Notes under the pieces: generated by a model
What the model saw: the letters and a program-made list of their open reading frames with translations, nothing else
Told to the model about the DNA's origin: nothing
Databases searched by the model: none
Shown: one piece after another, positions 8,779 to 31,818 of the stretch
How positions within the stretch are numbered: the first letter of the stretch is position 1
How the letters are laid out: the number at the start of each line of letters is the position of its first letter
Made by a program: the position numbers and the translations under genes
DNA from: Gigantopelta aegis
Lineage: Eukaryota > Mollusca > Gastropoda > Neomphalida > Peltospiridae
Length of the DNA stretch: 64,000 nt
Assembly: GCF_016097555.1 (NCBI RefSeq)
Contig: NC_054702.1
Location: forward strand, 86,694,525 to 86,758,524
Direction of reading: 5' to 3'

Positions 8779-11700
8779 ATGAAGGTAGGGTGAACTTTTT
8801 TCTTAATAATAGTACGCGTTGTTTCTAATGATTCTTTATTATTTATGTATAGACAATTATTAAGCATCGACAGTATATTTACATTTTTGTTTTGGTTTAA
8901 AGGCTAGACAGACTAACAGAACTTTTAAAAAAAAGAGAATGAAAAAGAAAACCATGATTAAAGAAAAAGAAGAAATCTTTGTAAAACAAATTATTGCTTA
9001 AAATACTTTTTTTTCTTTTTTTTTTTTATAAAAGGCGATACCATTGATATTAGCGACAGTCGTGGCTGTGAACGCCATCCCGCCTGCCTTGTTCAACATC
9101 CGACCACGTATCATGACCCAGACGTCGTTCATCTCCAAGATCACTAACAAAGTGAACGCTGTCGACACGTGTAAAATATGCGTCGATGTCTCCGGCCAAA
9201 TTATCAACCAAGTTCTCAACATAATTCTCAGTAAGTCTTCTTTACCCAGAGGGGCGAGACCTAGCCCAGTGGTAAAGCGCTCGCTTGATGCGCGGTCGGT
9301 CTGGGATCGATCCCCGTCAGTCGGCCCATTGGGCTATTTCTCGCTCCAGTCAGTGCACCACGACTGGTACATCAAAGGCCGTGGTATGTGCTATCCTGTT
9401 TATGGGATGGTGCATATAAAAGATCCCTTGCTGCTAATCGAAAAGAGTAGCCCATGAAGTGACGACAGCGGGTTTCCTCCCTCAATATCTGTGTGGTCCT
9501 TAACTATATGTCCGACGCCATATAACCAGGGAGGGGGCATGGCTCCCGTTACCTATTTACTAGCTACGTCAGTGCACGTGTTAACCAAATCTTCCTTTTA
9601 ACCAAAAACTCAATTTTTTAAACAGCGTTTTCGGGGTTTTCTAACGACCTTTCACGGTTTTGTTAAAATCATCTTGGACTCGATCCCATTTACTAACTGT
9701 ATGCCCCGTTGCCCGCACATTTGTTATCTGTTGTTTCGTGTCACGACATAAAAATATGCATGGATATGTAAGTCTGTGCATATTATAATAGCATTGTTTA
9801 TGATATCGCTACATACATTTCAGATGTCGGTGTGATTGGTTCATGTTCAAAACTCTGCACAATGGTGGAACAGAAAACTGGCTCCCAGATTATTGGAGTT
9901 GTTTGTGATATCGGTTGTGATTTTCTTGGCATTGATGAATTTGTCAAACTCATTCAAAAGTAAGTTTGGGCTTCTTATAAATATTAAGACGACCAGAAAC
10001 ACATTGAATATACTAACACTGATATTCTAAACAAGCAAATATATTAATATGTAAGTTTAATCGTAGAAATATATTTTTTTCGGAAAGATCTTACAATGCA
10101 ACAAACTCAGGAATGTCCCTTTAAATTAAAAAATATATATATATATATATGGACCGCTTGAATTTCTTTTTTATATCAATATGTGCAGGTAATTTAGACA
10201 GGAAATGCTGAATCACGAGGCCCCGCCTCAGTGGCACATTTATTTCAAATTGGTGTACACTGACGTCTTACTGTAATCCAGTTTTTTCTTTTAAATATTT
10301 GTATTACACATTTATGAATGAACTGAATGCTGGAACGTTCGGAAGTCTTGCCAATGTTGTACTCACCTAAATTAGAATAATATCCATAGGAAAAATCCAC
10401 ATACTTGTGAGAATTATTTTAGCAACTAATCTTATACGATGTAAGGCCCCACAGGCTGGGAGTCAAATTGAAATGTGATATCTGTCAGCTGTGAATCGTT
10501 TCGTTGATCCGCATCCCGGTAATCTAAACTAGGTGTGAGCCCACTTGAATTTTGTTTACTCCCCTCCCCACACACACACCACACACATCTCGATGACGAT
10601 AATATATATATATATATACATATATACACAGTGTTGGATGTAGGGAAGGGGGGGCGGATAGGGCAGGGGGGAGAGCGGTGTGCCCCTAACGTACATATTT
10701 ATTTATTTGAAATATGATTTTTTGTTTCTTAATATAATATATACTTACTTTTGAAGATACAATACATCTTTAAGTATATCCGTGTAAATGCATTTTTAAT
10801 CCACTCCTCAATACACTGTTTATCACAGTACATGGCATACACTTATGCTAACAGAGAGAAAAAATGCAATTGAAACATCCGATTCTGAATGGGATCATAT
10901 TATTATAATGTTAACGTTCCAAGACGGTCGGTAATGGAGGGGGTGCTAATATACAACGTTTGTATAAGCTGAATGGGTCGTGTTTTATGATATTCATTAC
11001 TGCTTGATGCTCTGGCCCTAATATCTGACCACTTAAAGAATTTGAGAACTGATTTACAGAGTGCGACTGAAACCGGATACGCACACTTGCGTTTGAACTC
11101 TAAACGTGATAAAAACCAGAAGCAATTCTGAAGGGTAGAAAACGAAACAAAACAAAGACCCTGTGTGCCACATTGTACGTCCGTGTATGTTTCTGCTATG
11201 ATACAATGTAAGTGTATGGGTTTTAACAGGTTATTTCGATATAAAAACCAGAAGTAATATATTGTTCACACACACACACACACACACACACGCGCTCACA
11301 CACACACACGCACACCTCCCCCATGATTTCCCCCCAAGTTGGAATTGCTTGTAGTATAAAAATGTATAATATATTCCGTCAATGAATCACGTCTTAGTAC
11401 AATGTTTGGCACCAACATTTCAAATGCAATCTGACTCCATAGTTTGTAAGTTTGCGGCGGGGGCGGCGGCGCGGCGGCGCGGCGGGACGGCTGCGGTAAG
11501 CGGCGCGCGGCAAGACCGATGGGATGTCGCGGCGGGACGGACGGGGCGGCTGCACGGAGTGGGGACGACGCAATGGCGCGGGCGGGACGGCGGGGGCGGG
11601 ACGGAAGGGGCGGGTCGTGGCGGAGGCGGAGGCGGCGATCAGCAAACATACATGAGATTGCTTTTGAAAACTGGGACGTCTACATCTATACATCTCTGTG

Positions 11701-14572
11701 TGAACCTTCGCACATCGTGGGTGAAACCAAAGAACCCCTACTGCGTCGTCTTTGTCTAAAGGGTAACAAGCAAGAGCGCTCTTTGTGTTTCCACACTATC
11801 ATTATCTAACAGTCAGAGTAGAAAAACACCGATGTCATTCACGTCTATATAAAGAGCCCCACGGGACAACCTGCTTCATTCATTACGGGAGCCGTCGTCG
11901 TGACACTTCATCTCAAACCTATGCCTTTCGGGGTTCTGATCATCATCATGAACTACAAACTGTACGTTCCCGACACAGAGAAATGGACTCGCTATTATCA
12001 GTTGCAAGCTCAAGGCAAATGTATGATTTCTCCTCGGACGGGTGAAAGGATGGACTTGGATAGCTTCTTGGAACTGTACGATAAAGATTACAAGAATGAC
12101 AAGAAGATGAAGACCGAAGAGTCACACAACATCAACCCTCCGGTCCTTATGACTTCTCCCACCCAGCAGGTGGTGGAACAGGCTAAAGCTCAACTCAAAC
12201 GCCAAAGGCAACATAATCAACAACTACAAAGTGGTGGGGGATACAAGCGTAACGCCTCGAAACGGCAGAGGCAATTTTAAAACTGTATAAAAGGAGCCAC
12301 GGAAGACGGACATCGCCATTTCAATTTGAATCGGCGGCGCTGTCACAATGTATCAGAGCTCGTGTCCTGAGTGTGAAAAGATATTTTCCAGGAGAGATGC
12401 CATGATGCGACATCTAAACACCAGTCATCCACCACCACCACTGCCACCACCACCACCACCACCACCACCACCACTGCCCCCACCACCACCACCACCACAA
12501 CTGCCACCACCACTACTGCCCCCACCAACACCACCACTACTGCCACCACCACTACCACCACCACCACCACTGCCACCACCACCACCACCACCACCACCCC
12601 CACCACTGCCACCACCACCACCACCACCACCACTACTGCCCCCACCACCACCACCACTACTGCCACCACCACCACTACCACCACCACCACCACTGCCACC
12701 ACCACCACCACCACCACCACCACCACCACCACTTGAATTGCTACATCCTTTCACGATGATCGTGTCGGGACCCACGTCGTGTGGGAAAACATTTTTGGTG
12801 TACAAACTACTGAAGAATGATAGAATCAATCCACCTCCCCAACGGATTATCTGGCTCTACAAAAGATGGCAACCGCTTTAAAAACGACATCATTGGGGCA
12901 ACGGTTTCGAGTGGAATTCGTCCAAGGCATACCTACGAATTTGGAAAACGACCATTATTTGGATCCCAGAATTAGAAATCTCATCGTGTTAGATGACCTG
13001 ATGTCTACGGCCAATAAAGATTCTCGCATCACGGACCTTTTTACAGAAGGGAGTCATCACAGAAACCTCTCCGTGATTGCCATCAATCAGAATCTCTATC
13101 AGAGTAAAGACCCGACGCAGAGAAGAAATTGTCACATTACCTGGCGCTGTTCACACAATCCCATCGACAAGCAACACGTTCTGACATTGGCACGACAGAT
13201 GTATCCAGAAACACTCGTCATTTCATGAAATATTTCGAGGGAGCTACCCGTAGGCCCTTTGGACACCTCATGGTGGACCTCAAACCTACCACGCCCGAAA
13301 TGTTACGCCTTCGGCCTAACGGCCTAGAGACGGGAACCTGTGTGCCTGAACGATATAAAAGCGTAGACGCAACAGCAAACATTCCAGAACGACTTGTCAC
13401 TAGCATCGGAAAAACAGCTCTGCGAGTGCAGCTACTACAGTGGATCCAAAATCATGCAAAACGGTGCATTTAAGAGGAAATTACAGGCATACCCGCCTAC
13501 GAAAGTGCTGACGACGAAGACGATGATGTAGAGCCATTTTTGAAAAAGGTCAAGAAACTGCAGTCCTGCGATACGTGTGGGGTCGTCTTTAAAGACGGGA
13601 GAAACTTGCAGCGACACCTGCGCTTGAATACATGTGAAAATGACGAGGAGAAAAGGAGAGACCTCTAATGATCTCGAAAACGAGGGCATACGTCAGATGA
13701 TCGATCGTGAATACGATATAAATCGTGACTATTTTGAAGACAAGAAACAACGTTTTCGAAATAGGAATATGTCTCAAGATGACATCGAAAAACGACTGAA
13801 GGCTCTAAAATGGAAATTGTTTTAAAGAAACGTACTCTCGAGTTTTGACATACATGTACTACTTTGACAAAGGCATGCACTCGAGAAACATTCTACAGTC
13901 GGTGGATCCGAAGACAGATGTTAGAACACAAATTCGTTCCAGATTAAACAAATATCGTTCCTGGATCAGTGAATATCTGGACGAAGCAGACAGTGCCGAC
14001 GACGATGATGATGATGCTACCAGTGGTGATGAGGGACATTGATGATGACAATTATACTAAATAAAACAGTAACTGTATTTTGCCGTACGACCTCTGAATG
14101 TGACCTTCTGTATATGCGTATCTTATGTCCACTGATTGTGAAATAATAAAATCCAGATATGACTCTTACCTTTCTTTTTATTTTTACTCATCCTCATGTA
14201 TGTTTGCTGATCGCCGCCTCCGCCTCCGCCACGACCCGCCCCTTCCGTCCCGCCCCCGCCGTCCCGCCCGCGCCATTGCGTCGTCCCCCCCCGTGTGGGG
14301 GGGGGGTCCGTGCAGCCGCCCCGTCCGTCCCGCCGCGACATCCCATCGGTCCTTGCCGCGCGCCGCTTACCGCAGCCGTCCCGCCGCGCCGCCGCGCCGC
14401 CGCCCCCGCCGCAAACTTACAAACTATGAGTCAGATTGCCATTTGAAATGTTGGTGCCAAACATTGGTACTAAGACGTGATTCATTGACGGAATATATTA
14501 TACATTTTTATACTACAAGCAATTCCAACTTGGGGGGAAATCATGGGGGAGGTGTGCGTGTGTGTGTGTGTG

Positions 14573-14614
<42 letters not shown>

Positions 14615-16474
14615 CAATATATTACTTCTGGGTTTTTATATCGAAATAACCTGTTAAAACCCATACACTTACATTGTATCATAGCAGAAAACATACACGG
14701 ACGTACAATGTGGCACACAGGGTCTTTGTTTTGTTTCGTTTTCTACCCTTCAGAATTGCTTCTGGTTTTTATCACGTTTAGAGTTCAAACGCAAGTGTGC
14801 GTATCCGTTTTTCAGTCGCACTCTGTAAATCAGTTTCTCAAATTCTTTAAGTGGTCAGATATTAGGGCCAGAGCATCAAGCAGTAATGAATATCATAAAA
14901 CACGACCCATTCAGCTTATACAAACGTTGTATATTAGCACCCCCTCCATTACCGACCGTCTTGGAACGTTAACACTATAATAATATGATCCCATTCAGAA
15001 TCGGATGTTTCAATTGCATTTTTCTCTCTGTTAGCATAAGTGTATGCCATGTACTGTGATAAACAGTGTATTGAGGAGTGGATTAAAAATGCATTACACG
15101 GATATACTTAAAGATGTATTGTATCTTCAAAAGTAAGTATATATATATTAAGAAACAAAAATCATATTTCAAATAAATAAATATGTACGTTAGGGGCACA
15201 CCGCTCTCCCCCCTGCCCTATCCGCCCCCCCCTTCCCTACATCCAACACTGTGTATATATGTATATATATATATATATTATCGTCATCGAGATGTGTGTG
15301 TGTGTGTGTGTGGGGGAGGGGAGTAAACAAAATTCAAGTGGTGCTCACACCTAGTTTAGATTACCGGGATGCGGATCAACGAAACGATTCACAGCTGACA
15401 GATATCACATTTCAATTTGACTCCCAGCCTGTGGGGCCTTACATCGTATAAAGATTAGTTTGCTAAAATAATTCTCACAAGTATGTGGATTTTTCCTATG
15501 GATATTATCTAATTTAGGTGAGTACAACATTGGCAAGACTTCCGAACGTTCCAGCATTCAGTTCATTCATAAATGTGTAATACAAATATCAAGGTATCAT
15601 TTATTAACGTTTCACAACTCTTCATTCTTTCTTTATTTCTTCTCTCGTACACTTGTATTCAATGTTGGGTGCGACGAACGGTCTCTTTCATAAGCTGCTA
15701 TATAATAACAAAGGGGGTGGGGGATATTAATTAACATACGTCTTTTAAGTAACCATTGTCTTCAAATACACATTTGGACAAACTACTGTATTGAGCATTA
15801 CATCGGTTCTTAAAAGAAAAACTGGAATGTACAATGTAAGAGTGACGTCAGTATTACACCAATTCTTAAAATAAATGTGCCCACACCCTTCTAGAGGCGG
15901 GGCCTCGTGACGTCAGCATTGCATCATCTTTCGTCATCCCCTACGGCGCAGTTTGGCGGCCATCTTGGATGATGCAATAGTGAAATCGATATCCCCTATA
16001 GTGGGGCCCTTACTACTAACATATTGCTGGTAATAAATCATAAGGCAGAAATGAATTTTACTTGTAGATTGCATTTCAGAATATGTAGTTTTCTAAATTC
16101 TACGTGGAAGCATACCCGAACCCCTAAAAACTTTGCTGTGCGCCCTCGATCTCAGTTAGGCCCCCCATCCCCCAAAAATCTACTCGCTTCTGCCGTGCCT
16201 GCCTTGTTTTTAATTACAAACACGTACATGTATTACGGCATTTTAAGAGCACGAGGCCAGCTAAATTAATAATTACATTTTTATACGACTTATAAAACGA
16301 ATTATATAACTAAGTTGATTATGATATTTAGTTTCAGAAATAACCATGTTTTGCGCAAGACTAATGACACATTAGTTTCCTTAATTTCCAATAAAAAGAG
16401 TGTTATTTATTAAATTGTGTTTTGTATTGTTGTTTTCAAAATACAAATGATAGACGTATGGTGTGATTAGAATG

Positions 16475-26015: not shown

Positions 26016-26021
26016 AACACC

Positions 26022-26385
26022 AGTAGTAACCAGGCCTGTATGGGGCCATGACCTACTTTCCGTGACCTTGACCTTGATGACGTCACGGCCTTGTGCCGTG
26101 ACCTCGTCCTACTGGCCCTGGCCTACTTAGACTGGCCTTGACCTTGATGACGTCACGGACTACTGTGCCGTGTGCAACATCCTACTGACCCGGCCTTGAC
26201 ATACTTAGACTGGCCTACTGTACCGTGTGCAACGTCCTACTGACCCGGCCTTGATCTACTTAGACCGGCCCTGGCCTACTTAGACTGACCTTGACCTACT
26301 TAGACTGGCCTACTGTACCGTGTGCAACGTCCTACTGACCCGGCCCTGACCTACTTAGACCGGCCCCTGACCTACTTAGACTGGT
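26022..26385 (+). repeat. Left terminal inverted repeat of element 2
   Basis: About 365 bp. After the AGTAGTAA end come repeated words: TGACCTTGACCTTGATGACG (TGACGTCA at 26078-26085 and 26148-26155), GTGTGCAACGTCCTACTGAC and CCTACTTAGACTGGCC, each present several times. The TATA box of the BIR gene follows within 10 bp. Motifs TCAAGGTCA (complement strand) and TGACGTCA match known ERR/SF-1 and CREB/ATF half sites. Confidence 0.9.
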
Positions 26386-26394
26386 ACGAAAGAG

Positions 26395-26402
26395 TATAAA
26401 AA
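26395..26402 (+). promoter_or_regulatory. TATA box of the BIR gene
   Basis: TATAAAAA 139 bp upstream of the chosen ATG and directly inside the left inverted repeat border. Each gene of the element has such a box (27321-27327 for the small protein), as do both genes of element 1. Confidence 0.65.
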
Positions 26403-26533
26403 GGCTAGATACGAGTTAATTGTCATTCGCTAGCCGAAAACGACCAGATCTGCGTTCGTTTTACTAGAGAACAGACGTGTTTTATGATTCTAGCATTCTT
26501 GTGTCTTGTTGCACTCTATCTGGAACGAAGAAG

Positions 26534-27049
26534 ATGGCATCGGGATATTCGAGCAGTGTTAGTAGCAGCAGTAGCGACGAGGACGACATCTTGGTCTGCA
26601 AATGTTCAGAAAGACATACGATCAAAAGAGTGGCTACCAAACAAGAAGAACATTTCATGGATCAAACGGATGCTACATGTGAAATTGGGGTTGGAACTGA
26701 AGATGGCGAACTCGTGGATGAACCCACAGATCAGACGGATGCTGCCTGTGAAACAGGTGCTGCCTGTGAGGAAGACTGCTATTCGAGACGTTACTTGTTC
26801 TGTCATCGTCCCGAAATGAGACATTTCTATGCCCGGATGCTGACGTATGCTCGGTGGCCCATACAATTACGTCAAAAACCAAAAGAACTTGCCACGGCCA
26901 GTTTCTACTACACGGGAGACCACGATGCCGTCGTCTGTTACTGTTGCGGACTTCGCATCTACCGGTGGAAGAAGACAGACGACCCAGTGATGGAACATTA
27001 CAGACTCTCTCCAAGATGTCCCTATGTGAACAACATGTTCAGACATTAA
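26534..27049 (+). CDS. BIR-domain (IAP-like) protein carried by element 2
   Basis: 171 aa from ATG 26534 (context AAGATGG; an upstream in-frame ATG at 26477 has a weaker context and would add 19 residues). Residues 1-80 are Ser- and acidic-rich with a short imperfect repeat (DQTDATCE / DQTDAACE). Residues about 95-167 form a BIR domain: RMLTYARWP, then Cys135-x2-Cys138-x16-His155-x6-Cys162, the exact zinc ligand spacing of the family, with the W and DDP motifs between. There is no RING finger, unlike many cellular IAPs. BIR proteins bind caspases or their activators and block apoptosis; several large DNA viruses of invertebrates carry them. Here an anti-death role for the element is inference. 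AATAAA at 27095-27100 closes the unit. The BIR gene is absent from element 1. Confidence 0.9.
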   Translation: MASGYSSSVSSSSSDEDDILVCKCSERHTIKRVATKQEEHFMDQTDATCEIGVGTEDGELVDEPTDQTDAACETGAACEEDCYSRRYLFCHRPEMRHFYARMLTYARWPIQLRQKPKELATASFYYTGDHDAVVCYCCGLRIYRWKKTDDPVMEHYRLSPRCPYVNNMFRH

Positions 27050-27381
27050 ATATTTCAGACACTTGTGTGCTATGTTTTCATGTTGTATGTTGTGAATAAA
27101 ACCGTGAATAACATGTTTTGCTTTCTTATTTATGTCCTGCGTCCATGAGTGTGTCTCTGGACGTGTCCCTATGGTAGTGACACTGGTAAAGGGTAATATT
27201 TTGGTAACGATGTTTTTTGGGAGCTCGCACGATGAGATTTGTGCTTGGGAGGAGGGGCACTGGTCATACGTATCACACACATTCAAACATTCCTGTACCA
27301 TATCTTTATGCGTCATAAGGTATATAAGTAAAATAGTTTTGGAAAACTCGTCATTTGAGGTAAAACCTTCAGAGGAGCAAC

Positions 27382-27723
27382 ATGTCAGACCAGTACAAGT
27401 TATATGTACCCGACGTGGATAAGTGGACCCGTTTCTATAAACTGCAGGCAGAAGGTAAACTTCAACCTCACTTCGAAATTCAACGTGGTGGGGAAAGTCA
27501 GATCATGTACAGTGTGGATCGATGTCTAGAACTCTACGATCCCACATGGAAAAAAGAAAAAGAGGAACAGAACAAGTCCCCGACACCCAAAGTCGTCATG
27601 GTCTCCCCAACACAACAAGTGGTAGAGCAAGCTAAGGCCGAGCAGAAACGGAAACGTCAAGAGAGTGGCGTGGAACAGAAACAACGAGAGCAGACTGGGC
27701 AAAAACGGCACAAGCATTTCTGA
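27382..27723 (+). CDS. Small conserved protein of the Polinton-like elements (copy 2)
   Basis: 113 aa, starting MSDQYKLYVPDVDKWTRFY, with its own TATATAA at 27321-27327. It shares the YVPDxxKWTRxYxLQAxGK block (residues about 6-26), LELYDPTW, SPTQQVVEQAKAE and a Lys/Arg/Gln-rich tail with the 110-aa protein of element 1. The conserved N-terminal half with a variable basic tail suggests a DNA- or protein-binding factor; no known family is recognised. Conservation across two elements whose inverted repeats differ shows it is a core gene of this element type. It sits between the BIR and ATPase genes on the same strand. Confidence 0.8.
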   Translation: MSDQYKLYVPDVDKWTRFYKLQAEGKLQPHFEIQRGGESQIMYSVDRCLELYDPTWKKEKEEQNKSPTPKVVMVSPTQQVVEQAKAEQKRKRQESGVEQKQREQTGQKRHKHF

Positions 27724-27794
27724 GAAGGCTATTAAAGGGGGCATGGCAGTTTCAACATCGTCAGTTCACGTCGAACACTTCAACAATCAACATC

Positions 27795-28384
27795 ATGAAT
27801 CAGAATTGGTTTATTCCGGAACATGTCATGAACAAAAGATCGTGTCCTGTATGTCCAGACTTTTTCAAAACCATCAAATATGCTACGTCATTGGAAGACC
27901 TTCCATTCAGCTCAACTCCAGGCTCCTATGTCTCCTATAGCTCCTGCTCCGGCTCCTATGGCTCTTACTCCTCTGGCTCCTATAGCTCCGGCTCCTCTGG
28001 CTCCTATAGCTCTGGCTCCTATAGCTCCTGCTCCGGCTCCTCTGGCTCGTATAGCTCCTGCTCCGGCTCCTAGGGCTCATATAGCTCCTCTGGCTCCTAT
28101 AGCTCCTGCTCCTATGGCTCCTATAGCTCCTGCTCCTCTGGCTCCTATAGCTCCTGCTCCGGCTCCTATAGCTCGTATAGCTCCGGCTCCTCTGGCTCCT
28201 GCTCCTCTGGCTCCTATAGCTCCTGCTCTTCTGGCTCCTATAGCTCCTGCTCCGGCTCCTATAGCTCCTCTGGCTCCTCTAGCTCATATAGCTCCTGCTC
28301 CTCTGGCTCCTATAGCTCCTGCTCATAGGGCTCCTATAGCTTCTGCTCATAGGGCTCCTATAGCTCCTGCTCCTGCCCCTAAGA
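27795..28384 (+). repeat. Low-complexity coding-like segment before the ATPase
   Basis: Opens with a short stretch containing a CPVCPDFF cysteine pair (27795-27900), then about 450 bp of repeated GGCTCCTATAGCTCCTGCTC hexamer-type units (27925-28380). One frame reads Ala/Pro/Ile, another Gly/Ser/Tyr/Cys. It occupies the same place as the zinc finger plus polyproline segment in element 1, though the repeat unit is unrelated. Whether it is part of the ATPase protein cannot be told from the sequence. Confidence 0.6.
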
Positions 28385-29638
28385 TTGTTACATCCGTTCA
28401 CCATGATCGTGTCGGGACCCACGTCGTGTGGAAAGACAGTTTTGTTGTACAAACTGCTAAGGGATGGTAAAATCCAGCCGCCTCCCCAGCGCATCATCTG
28501 GCTCTACAAACGATGGCAACCCCTCTATGATACGATCAAAATGGTTGCTCGAGTGAAATTTGTTCAAGGCATACCCGAGAATTTGGAAAAGGATCGTTAT
28601 TTGGATTCGAGAGTCAGAAATCTCATCGTGTTGGACGACCTGATGTCTACAGCTGGAAAAGACCCTCGCATCACCGACCTGTTCACGGAAGGAAGTCACC
28701 ACAGAAACCTCTTTGTGATTGCCATCAACCAGAACCTGTATCACAGCAAGGACCCGACACAGAGAAGAAACTGTCATTACCTGGCACTGTTCAACAACCC
28801 CATCGACAAGCAGCAAGTCCTAACCTTGGCACAGCAGATGTATCCTGGAAATACTCGTCATTTCATGCTGCGGTTTGAGGAAGCTACCCACAGGCCCTAC
28901 GGATATCTCTTGGTGGACTTGAAACCGACCACGCCCGAACATTGGCGTCTTCGGCCTAATGGTTTAGAGACGGGGCCGTCCGAATGGTATAAAAGCACGA
29001 ACGTAATGGCGAATGTCTCAGAAGAGTTGCAACCACCGACGAAGAAAGAGCTCTACATGCTAATCATGCAAAGAAACGCATTCAAGAGAAAACTACCAGG
29101 CATACCCGCCTACGAAAGTGACGACGAAGAAGAAGATGAGGTAGAACCCTATCTGAAAAAAGTCAAGAGGATGCAGTCTTGCGATACGTGTGGTCTGGTC
29201 TTTAAAGACGGAAGCGACTTGCAACGACACGTGAAAACGTGCGAGGAGGAATCTGAAGAGCCGTCGCCCGACTTGGAAAACGAAGGCATTCGTCTCATGG
29301 TGGAACGTGAATTCGACATCAATCATGACTATCTCCAAAGCAAGAGGAAACGCTACGAAGAAAAAAACATGTCCCAAGATGCCATCGAAAGAAACATGAA
29401 GACATTGCAATGGAAGTTATTTAAAGACACGTACTCTCGCTTTCTGACCTATATGCATTACTTTGACAAAGGTCCCAACACCAGAAAAAGTTTACAGTTT
29501 GTGAATCCAGACAAAGATGTGAGACCACAGATTCGTTCTAAATTAAATCAGTATCGTTCCTGGATCGGCGAATATTTGGATGAACAAGACGACGACGATA
29601 CCGACGATGAGGAGGACGACGACGATGAAGAGAAATGA
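28385..29638 (+). CDS. Polinton-type packaging ATPase with C-terminal zinc finger
   Basis: Open frame of 417 aa. Walker A is GPTSCGKT (11-18), Walker B LIVLDD (80-85), with a conserved AINQNLY strand (113-119) in the sensor position; this is the FtsK/HerA-type (A32-like) genome-packaging ATPase of Polintons, adintoviruses and relatives. After the ATPase core (to about 190) come an acidic stretch (245-255), a zinc-finger-like Cys266-x2-Cys269-x12-His282-x3-Cys286, a helical region (295-395) and a very acidic tail. The zinc finger and tail are unusual additions for this ATPase family and also occur in element 1, so they are original. The family normally pumps DNA into capsids, yet no capsid gene is present here. 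AATAAA at 29733-29738. Confidence 0.9.
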   Translation: MLHPFTMIVSGPTSCGKTVLLYKLLRDGKIQPPPQRIIWLYKRWQPLYDTIKMVARVKFVQGIPENLEKDRYLDSRVRNLIVLDDLMSTAGKDPRITDLFTEGSHHRNLFVIAINQNLYHSKDPTQRRNCHYLALFNNPIDKQQVLTLAQQMYPGNTRHFMLRFEEATHRPYGYLLVDLKPTTPEHWRLRPNGLETGPSEWYKSTNVMANVSEELQPPTKKELYMLIMQRNAFKRKLPGIPAYESDDEEEDEVEPYLKKVKRMQSCDTCGLVFKDGSDLQRHVKTCEEESEEPSPDLENEGIRLMVEREFDINHDYLQSKRKRYEEKNMSQDAIERNMKTLQWKLFKDTYSRFLTYMHYFDKGPNTRKSLQFVNPDKDVRPQIRSKLNQYRSWIGEYLDEQDDDDTDDEEDDDDEEK

Positions 29639-29759
29639 ACACTCATATTATTCACATGTCGCCCTTAAGGCCTTTCGATGTAACCCAGTGTGTGCCCATT
29701 TTATATATGTGTCAGTGATTTGTAATTTTAGAAATAAATGAAAAACCAAACCATTGCGT

Positions 29760-30097
29760 TTGTTTTTTGTGTTTCTTACTCTATGACTAGATTTGTGACT
29801 GGATATTTCTACCGCTACTTTATAGTAGCAAGAGCTGTGTGTACAAGACAGAACATACCACGATCTTTGATATGCCAGACATAATACACTAGTTGGCTAT
29901 AGCTTAATGGGCCACCGACGGAGATCGATCCTAGATCGACCACTGTATTTACCTATTTGGTAATTAAAAAAGCCCTGTAAAAAGGCTTGTACTCTAGGGA
30001 AATACTTGTGTTTAAAATGCAGCTAAAAGATCATAGTTTAGGTCGGAGCGTTGAGTTGCAGCCATACGTTCTTTCTTCAAAGCAATGGGCTGGGGAT

Positions 30098-30174
<77 letters not shown>

Positions 30175-31304
30175 TCCTTTCTTCCTTTAACAAACATTCC
30201 TTTCTTCTCCTTAACACATATGCCTTTCTTTTTAACAAACATTCCTTTTTTCGAGACAAATGTCTTTCTTTTCCTATGACTAAAACAAAATACTAAAAAT
30301 TTGTATTCAATTAATCTTTATTTTACGAGGAAGGAAATGTTTTATTTACTCAATATATTTTATTTTACGGTTATACGGACATATGGCTAAGGACCAAACA
30401 TATATTGAGGGAGGAAACCTGCTGTCGCCACTTCATGGGCTACTCTTTTGAATAACAGCAATGGATCCTACACCATCCCACAGACAAGATAGTACATACC
30501 GTTGTCCAGTTGTGAAGCATTGGCTGGATATAGCCCAATGGGCCCACCTACGGGGATCGACCCCAGACCGACCGCACATCAAGGGAACACTGAGCTTCGT
30601 CCCGTCCCCACAGGGTTATTAGAGGCTGCTTGAAAAAAAAACTCGTAACATAATAAATAAATAAACAAATAAATAAGTAAGTAAATAAGTAAAATAAAAA
30701 CAAACTATAAATTATTATTTTGTTTTAAAAATAATAGAAAAACTTTAATTTCTCCACATGAGATACGAACGACGTACCCTCAGCGCTGGACGCGAAGTCG
30801 TTCGCAGCTAACTACTTCACGCATGTTAACAATACCTGTCATTTAAACCGTTATATGTGCGAGCGGCGAAGCGCGGAAGGACGTGACGAAATAGGTCAGT
30901 TAATAATAATCTTGTGAATGCGCTATCAGATAGCGGGAACCAGATAGCGTAGAACGAAAATTCTGTTTTACACCTATTTAAATCATTTCTTATTTCACGT
31001 CTTTAAGAATGTAACTTCTAGTTCAGTATTGTCACCGACAATAAAATAGAATACCACCGCTTCCCGGATGTAAACAGTGATAACCATTCATCATTGAATC
31101 AGTGCGCTAAAAATAAATACACTACGGTCACTACCTGGCGTCGGGCTGAGTCCTTAGACGTGGTAGGTTAACGACACCACTAGAGCACCTCGATTTATGA
31201 ATCATTGGCTATTGGATGTCAAACATACTTTTGGCAGTTTTAGAGAGGAAAACCCCCCTGCAGGTTCCCATTAGTAGCAAGGGATCCCACAGACAGGATA
31301 GCAC
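29760..31304. repeat. SINE debris, CA run and unassigned sequence in element 2
   Basis: Reverse-strand family-1 SINE pieces lie at about 29850-29942, 30325-30590 (with complement of GGATCGATCCC-like B box and type-1 tail) and 31165-31304 (type-2 tail, cut at the inverted repeat). A CA run spans 30103-30171. Sequence 30640-31160 has no recognised gene or repeat. These insertions may have replaced a part of the element, since no fourth gene is visible here. Confidence 0.7.
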
Positions 31305-31695
31305 GGGCGTTGCTAAGTACGACGGATAGGGGTCGGGCTAAATAGGTCAGGGGCCGGTCTAAGTAGGTCAGGGCCGGGTCAGTAGGACGTTGCACACTGC
31401 ACAGTAGGCCAGTCTAAGTAGGTCAGGGGCCGGCCTAAGTAGGTCAGGGCCGGGTCAGTAGGACGTTGCACACGGCACAGTAGTCCGTGACGTCATCAAG
31501 GTCAAGGCCAGTCTAAGTAGGTCAGGGCCAGTAGGACGAGTCACGGCACAAGGCCGTGACGTCATCACGGTCAAGGTCACGGAAAGTAGGTCAGGGCCGG
31601 GTCATTAGGACGAGGTCACGTGACAAGGCCGTGACGTCATCAAGGTCAAGGTCACGGAAAGTAGGCCATGACTCTATACAGGCCCCCTTACTACT
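31305..31695 (-). repeat. Right terminal inverted repeat of element 2
   Basis: Mirror of the left repeat, about 390 bp, with the same subrepeats in a different copy number (one additional AAGTAGGTCAGGGCCGGGTC block). The inner edge abuts a truncated SINE at 31304. The outer end is TTACTACT, then the AACACC target duplication. Confidence 0.9.
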
Positions 31696-31818
31696 AACAC
31701 CAGCCTCCCCCTCCTCAATATATATAAATATTTAAATGTGTGGTGTATTCTATTAGAGATAGTGGATATATCTATATATAGTATGTACTATTTAATATAT
31801 GTGTCTACATACAGCACA

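Follow-up and report, generated by a model that had tools for sequence, protein, structure and literature searches.

A 64,000-nucleotide stretch of the genome of Gigantopelta aegis, a gastropod of deep-sea vents (NC_054702.1, positions 86,694,525 to 86,758,524; here termed the window) contains a 5,674-bp element at 26022-31695 that begins with AGTAGTAA and ends with TTACTACT. The element has the end motif AGTAGT//ACTACT, is bounded on either side by the perfect 6-bp duplication AACACC, and carries inverted terminal arms of about 360 bp that are composed of sub-repeats. Between the arms, three genes are arranged from left to right: a gene for a BIR protein, a gene for a protein of 113 amino acids, P113, and a gene for an ATPase of the A32/FtsK-HerA type (Table 1). 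When pieces of the element family were mapped onto the loci, no piece of the polymerase gene PolB or of an integrase gene was found in the window element, and no capsid gene was recognised in it. A preliminary description of this DNA had given the same length, duplication and inverted repeats and the same three-gene content, all of which hold. It overlooked the PC4-like gene that belongs to the family and a second short element in the same window, both of which are described below.

Table 1. Features of the window element (positions in the window)
Feature	Position	Strand
Left 6-bp target duplication, AACACC	26016..26021	
Left terminal inverted repeat, starting with AGTAGTAA, with sub-repeats	26022..26385	+
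Junction at which the PC4-like gene of many relatives is missing; same junction in L010, L025 and L029	26457..26464	
BIR (inhibitor-of-apoptosis domain) gene from the in-frame ATG; open frame as listed 26477-27049, domain at about 26834-27028	26534..27049	+
Short-form spacer from BIR to P113, replacing integrase, CAPX and the gene for a 127-amino-acid protein	27057..27366	+
P113, small protein with a basic C terminus	27382..27723	+
N-terminal part of the ATPase gene with zinc finger and Pro/Ala-rich linker, in differing frames	27795..28384	+
A32/FtsK-HerA-type packaging ATPase with a C-terminal C2H2 finger and an acidic tail	28385..29638	+
Tail in which no gene is recognised, with a CA repeat and repeat-like sequence besides	29639..31321	
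Right terminal inverted repeat, ending with TTACTACT	31338..31695	-
Right 6-bp target duplication, AACACC	31696..31701	

The window element is one member of a family in the Gigantopelta aegis genome. A 71-nt piece of its end has at least 67 genome matches (40 of 950 candidates scored). Thirty loci with terminal inverted repeats (TIRs), L009-L038, were fetched as stretches of at most 10 kb, and the set is hence biased towards short copies. Fifteen of these loci are two-ended within their stretch, L018 was completed with L039, and the other 14, which have one end only, were left out of the duplication counts. With the window copy included, a perfect 6-bp duplication is present in 16 of the 17 two-ended copies, the exception being L033. 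The relatives with the same ends that the preliminary description had proposed to look for are thus present, and the duplication recurs at other insertions. AACACC is common to the window copy and L016, and the flanks of different copies are alike in 2 of 240 pairings, both AACACC. Sixteen of the two-ended copies, the window copy among them, are 804-7,525 bp long, and the 17th, the PolB-bearing copy L018/L039, is 12,272 bp long and has the duplication GATGCG.

Mapping of the family pieces onto all fetched loci gives the gene order PC4-like, BIR, a block of integrase, CAPX and the gene for a 127-amino-acid protein, P113, and ATPase. The PC4-like gene corresponds to PF02229, matched in two stretches. 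Among the fetched loci, L010 and L018 are the sole carriers of the integrase, CAPX and 127-amino-acid genes, apart from a CAPX fragment in the second window element, and the PolB core is found in L018 only, with remnants of the PolB N-terminal part in L011 and L016. Neither PolB nor integrase pieces occur in the fetched stretches of the 14 one-ended loci. In L010, an ATPase accompanies integrase and CAPX. The helper-type copy L018/L039 contains PolB, integrase, CAPX and P113, as well as PC4 and BIR, and shows no ATPase piece in this mapping. The PC4-BIR-P113-ATPase set, whole or partial, occurs without a PolB core or integrase in L011, L012, L014, L016, L030, L033, and L034, and none of the mapped family genes is seen in L015, L022, and L038. 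The preliminary description had raised the question whether long relatives encode PolB, integrase and capsid; PolB and integrase are found in L018/L039, and CAPX is capsid-like.

The short members of the family share their internal junctions. BIR and P113 are separated by a spacer of about 310 bp at the place that integrase and CAPX take in L010 and L018, and this spacer has no match in L010, L018, or L039. The BIR-spacer and spacer-P113 borders are both read through in 12 copies, including the window copy, at 91-100% identity, and L010, L018, and L029 diverge from the spacer borders. The ATPase-tail junction is read through in nine copies, again with the window copy among them, and the junction without the PC4-like gene is read through in three other copies (Table 1). 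Altogether, five junction stretches of the window copy were examined, and every one of them is read through in three or more further copies. The spacer-bearing copies are observed at separate places, and their duplications differ where both ends are seen, except for the AACACC of the window copy and L016 and for L033, which has none. Because these internal junctions are common to copies at different sites, the deleted form itself has moved. The short-form lineage keeps the family TIRs and a module of PC4-like, BIR, P113, and ATPase genes, is without PolB, integrase, and CAPX, and has spread in this deleted form; movement after loss of the enzymes, the trait of a non-autonomous element, is thereby observed.

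The motor, the polymerase, and the integrase are found at largely separate places in the genome. The lists of ATPase, PolB, and integrase candidates each comprise the best-scored part, ordered by likeness to one query, and candidates are not copies. Of 1980 ATPase candidates, each of the best 100 covers 402 or more of 417 residues with 90-100% identity, and no stop interrupts the matched part in 86 of these 100 places. For PolB (44 of 264 candidates scored), the 56 rows reduce to 42 loci on merging; 14 rows span 900 or more of the 1039 residues, and five of these are without stops (stop-free and long rows of the ATPase and PolB lists were counted by eye). For integrase (110 of 1544 candidates scored), 115 rows yielded 98 places after 10 rows with 45-48% identity, which represent another family, were dropped and seven split pieces were merged. 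An integrase place lies within 15 kb of 24 of the 42 PolB loci, and 23 of these places are downstream and convergent, as in L018. The gaps between the matched parts of PolB and integrase range from 2.2 to 9.2 kb and exceed 4 kb in 20 of the 24 cases. The best 100 ATPase places (of 1980 candidates) are all more than 20 kb away from every one of the 42 PolB loci, and two of these 100 have an integrase place at 15 kb or less, in both cases at a distance of about 1.8 kb, as in L010.

The retained genes show signs of purifying selection. Pairwise ratios of nonsynonymous to synonymous divergence (dN/dS) were obtained by a counting method from pieces mapped to one reference frame, using every fetched copy in which 60% or more of the codons are present. 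The values are 0.27 for ATPase (55 pairs, median dS 0.09), 0.32 for BIR (91 pairs), 0.14 pooled and 0.19 median for P113 (78 pairs), and 0.28 pooled and 0.45 median for PC4 (63 pairs), with 0.78 for integrase and 0.25 for CAPX from one pair each. For the spacer-bearing copies other than L035 (11 of 12), single-step variants at codon columns with at least four copies were also separated into shared variants, present in at least two copies, and singletons, and a dN/dS-like ratio, omega, was calculated for both. For ATPase (10 copies), omega is 0.16 (0.08-0.34) for shared variants and 0.37 (0.24-0.57) for singletons; for BIR (11 copies), 0.29 (0.16-0.48) and 0.47 (0.25-0.94); for P113 (10 copies), 0.23 (0.08-0.59) and 0.31 (0.15-0.88); and for PC4 (nine copies), 0.15 (0.06-0.36) and 0.47 (0.25-1.01), respectively. 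Given the low omega of the shared variants, selection acted during the making of the short copies, or earlier.

Taken together, these data make it fairly probable that the window element is an old copy of an amplified, helper-dependent, non-autonomous lineage of Polinton/Maverick elements of the adintovirus type that keeps an accessory and packaging module. The passenger-type element proposed in the preliminary description is partly borne out in that it forms a multi-copy lineage of its own, with recurrent 6-bp duplications, shared internal junctions, and signs of purifying selection. The short elements largely keep the packaging-motor gene and probably rely on their longer relatives in this genome. 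As the long relatives carry both PolB and integrase, we infer that these enzymes are supplied in trans: PolB from longer copies in the same nucleus would replicate DNA with the short-form TIRs, and integrase from longer copies would insert it, leaving the 6-bp duplications. The retained genes would be kept for a benefit either to the short DNA in cis or to a co-replicating helper, with the PC4-like protein acting as a putative binder of single-stranded DNA and the BIR protein as a putative blocker of cell death. The least certain step concerns the ATPase, which, by hypothesis, would be the motor that loads the short DNA into a helper-made capsid, such that the short element would be a satellite packaged by its own motor or resemble a viral genome that is defective and yet under selection. 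We put forward only tentatively a broader picture, that of a germ-line-resident satellite system in an animal, in which short Polintons akin to defective genomes, a few of them integrated as snap-back palindromes, would persist in high number because they supply a selected motor, the PC4-like protein, and an anti-apoptotic BIR protein, rarer PolB/integrase elements would supply copying and insertion, and each would depend on the other; long elements would then perhaps draw their ATPase from short ones.

A number of observations weigh against a helper-dependent lineage with a selected motor. The support for it comes from the genome sequence. The window copy itself has an ATPase gene that is broken at the N terminus, and its arms disagree at 7 of the first 70 positions, a difference that marks the copy as old; it is probably inert. 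At least 386 of 396 ATPase codons are present in nine copies, and only the window copy, L012, and L030 are among the best 100 ATPase places; the ATPase of L010, which is near an integrase, is absent from these 100 places as well. Since ATPase and capsid genes could fit into the gaps between PolB and integrase, the long copies may have an ATPase of greater divergence, and L010, together with the two ATPase places near an integrase, indicates that the forms grade into each other. Only one end was recovered for 14 of the 30 fetched loci, and the two-ended copies are short by construction because of the 10-kb limit on the stretches. The singleton contrast is not valid for every gene, since over all fetched copies, where the pattern is otherwise similar, omega for P113 is 0.15 for singletons versus 0.19 for shared variants. 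Finally, the ATPase, BIR, and PC4 gene trees conflict, which implies exchange between copies; selected genes may have come from longer copies by this route, and part of the low-omega signal may be inherited or derived from long relatives.

The explanation that competes most seriously, although we regard it as unlikely, is that the short forms are passive deletion derivatives that have spread only via recognition of their TIRs, with the ATPase and BIR frames as leftovers and the low dN/dS either inherited or recombined in. The conflict among the gene trees is consistent with such an origin, as are the coexistence of several deletion forms, the PolB N-terminal remnants in L011 and L016, and the three loci with none of the family genes, and the higher omega of singletons than of shared variants for each gene in the spacer-bearing copies fits neutral decay after insertion. 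Passive leftovers are harder to reconcile with the 86 stop-free matches among the best 100 ATPase places and with shared variants that, within the spacer-bearing copies, are still at omega 0.15-0.29. Likewise, the PC4-BIR-P113-ATPase set recurs, whole or partial, without a PolB core or integrase in seven loci, and the second, diverged window element again keeps P113 and ATPase and neither PolB nor integrase.

A two-part (segmented) viral genome would consist of a short segment with ATPase, PC4, and BIR and a long segment with PolB, integrase, and capsid but without ATPase, both being needed. The 12.3-kb PolB copy, which shows no ATPase piece, and the separation of the best 100 ATPase places from the 42 PolB loci by more than 20 kb would be expected from such a division. 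This rival is nevertheless weak, because the long copies have room for ATPase and capsid genes between PolB and integrase in the 20 of 24 gaps that exceed 4 kb. The long copy moreover repeats PC4, BIR, and P113, integrase, CAPX, and ATPase occur together in L010, and the ATPase, PolB, and integrase counts cover the best-scored candidates only; on balance, a segmented genome appears quite improbable. Origin of the window copy by private, random deletion within a single Polinton of 15-20 kb, which the preliminary description had named among the findings that would overturn its reading, has the existence of long relatives in its favour, but it is contradicted by the window junctions shared with other copies and by the many short relatives and is scarcely credible. 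A chance cluster of host genes between repeats was also rejected, as the same genes recur within copies that have the same ends and duplications.

The second short element, diverged but of the same kind, is located at 10200-16017 of the window, with its right end, GGGGCCCTTACTACT, at 16017 and its left tip apparently absent, as judged by eye. Its inner arms of about 1.36 kb are nearly identical (1352 matches, 4 mismatches, and 47 gap columns). Between them are P113, an ATPase with a disrupted frame, and the 3′ part of CAPX, and pieces of PolB and integrase are absent. Three of the fetched copies, L009, L015, and L022, are palindromic inside (fold-back), each with a perfect 6-bp duplication; the palindrome arms consist of PC4-BIR in L009 and of the tail in L015 and L022. 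Such copies would be an expected product of strand switching while linear DNA is copied, and they resemble snap-back defective viral genomes. Pieces of the window tail match L010, L015, L022, L025, L029, L030, and L034, and no matching pieces are present in L009, L011, L018, and L039. The two ends of the window copy are of different variants, AGTAGTAACCAGG at 26022-26040 versus AGTAGTAAGGGGG at 31678-31695, and the ends of L030 are likewise of two variants, which suggests recombination between copies. The spacers of six copies differ by only 2-4% from that of the window copy, and the median pairwise synonymous divergence of BIR over all copies is 0.23, which points either to constraint on the spacer or to exchange of BIR.

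The BIR gene of the window element matches PF00653 (1.1e-20). In L018, the PolB core matches PF03175 (5e-44), the PolB N-terminal part matches no OTU family in Pfam, and the integrase is composed of rve and Chromo domains. Fold comparison is informative for the ATPase, which is of the A32/FtsK-HerA type; a sequence search of the PDB returned mostly zinc-finger matches and is not informative. CAPX is predicted to be all-beta, with a mean pLDDT of 73, and among BFVD models it is matched best by a Drosophila-associated adintovirus 2 protein that has no assigned role (E 4.5e-8, TMq 0.73). Since nothing matched in a PDB fold search at E 0.001, the capsid identity of CAPX rests on this single match. 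Protein searches returned only four relatives for CAPX and three for P113. Pfam scans of six and nine proteins, which cover the long copies in part and do not extend to their PolB-integrase gap, revealed no adenovirus-type protease and no hexon (double jelly-roll). Outside Gigantopelta aegis, no relatives were confirmed in scans of viral contigs with the ATPase alignment and with PolB, or in a scan of genome contigs with the ATPase alignment, at two to six peptide patterns per scan.

Two database entries touch on these proteins. The Gigantopelta aegis gene model P0127, named "putative inhibitor of apoptosis", matches P113 (90% over 35% of P113) and has a BIR domain; it looks like a gene pair of the element. 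Some mollusc BIR "inhibitor of apoptosis" gene models, and the family counts that are based on them, may accordingly include element genes, for which P0127 is the one example. A mollusc-type ATPase of the element family, P0114, is assigned to a metagenome genome of Sedimenticola sp. and is possibly animal DNA in a bacterial bin.

In the literature searched, which lay outside Repbase and most subscription papers and is therefore weak evidence of novelty, none of the exact phrases looked for that denote non-autonomous or truncated Polinton/Maverick lineages was found. The related titles and abstract openings that were listed describe no lineage of the short, ATPase-keeping kind, and the main text of the host genome paper contains no word beginning with Maverick or Polinton. 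A lineage that drops the transposition enzymes yet keeps a packaging ATPase that shows signs of selection is expected if packaging matters to Polintons, and the short and long elements offer, within a single sequenced genome, a specific putative pair of helper and satellite that can be put to the test.

The window family is most readily compared with Mavericks/Polintons. Polintons are regarded as transposons and viruses at once. According to one account, (AGT)2//(ACT)2 is the commonest end motif of vertebrate Mavericks, intact copies have 6-bp duplications and eight conserved open reading frames (seven in Xenopus tropicalis), and particles are stated to be unobserved for Mavericks (PMC8097293). 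Similar to these elements as so described, the window family has the same motif, AG-starting inverted repeats, 6-bp duplications, and an FtsK/HerA-type packaging ATPase, and a longer relative has PolB and integrase. In contrast, the window copy is 5.7 kb long, encodes BIR, P113, and ATPase only, and has neither the protein-primed PolB nor the rve integrase of a Polinton, the latter being present in L010 and L018. Lacking both enzymes, it is filed as a non-autonomous relative rather than a full Polinton or adintovirus.

For adintoviruses, the definition was taken from PMC11071296, and a second source gives 13.3-14.6 kb for three Drosophila-associated adintovirus sequences and reports capsid, protease, and FtsK homologues for the first (PMC8363768). 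By these descriptions, the L018 integrase, with its rve domain and C-terminal chromodomain, is of the adintovirus kind, and the CAPX model best matches a protein of Drosophila-associated adintovirus 2. No hexon was identified among the proteins scanned. The window copy has less than half the length of the Drosophila-associated sequences and lacks two adintovirus features, the rve-chromodomain integrase, which L018 has, and a PolB with an N-terminal OTU-like domain.

The short elements also resemble satellite viruses and defective interfering genomes in their probable helper dependence, their short genomes, and the palindromic copies L009, L015, and L022. Several satellites carry their own capsid rather than a motor alone. 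The elements described here, which are known from sequence, keep the motor, and no capsid gene is recognised in the window copy. As in non-autonomous DNA transposons and miniature inverted-repeat transposable elements, cis sequences are kept, enzymes would act in trans, and the elements are smaller than their enzyme-coding relatives. Such transposons do not usually retain selected coding genes; in the Gigantopelta aegis lineage, by contrast, four genes with signs of purifying selection are retained, including a packaging motor.

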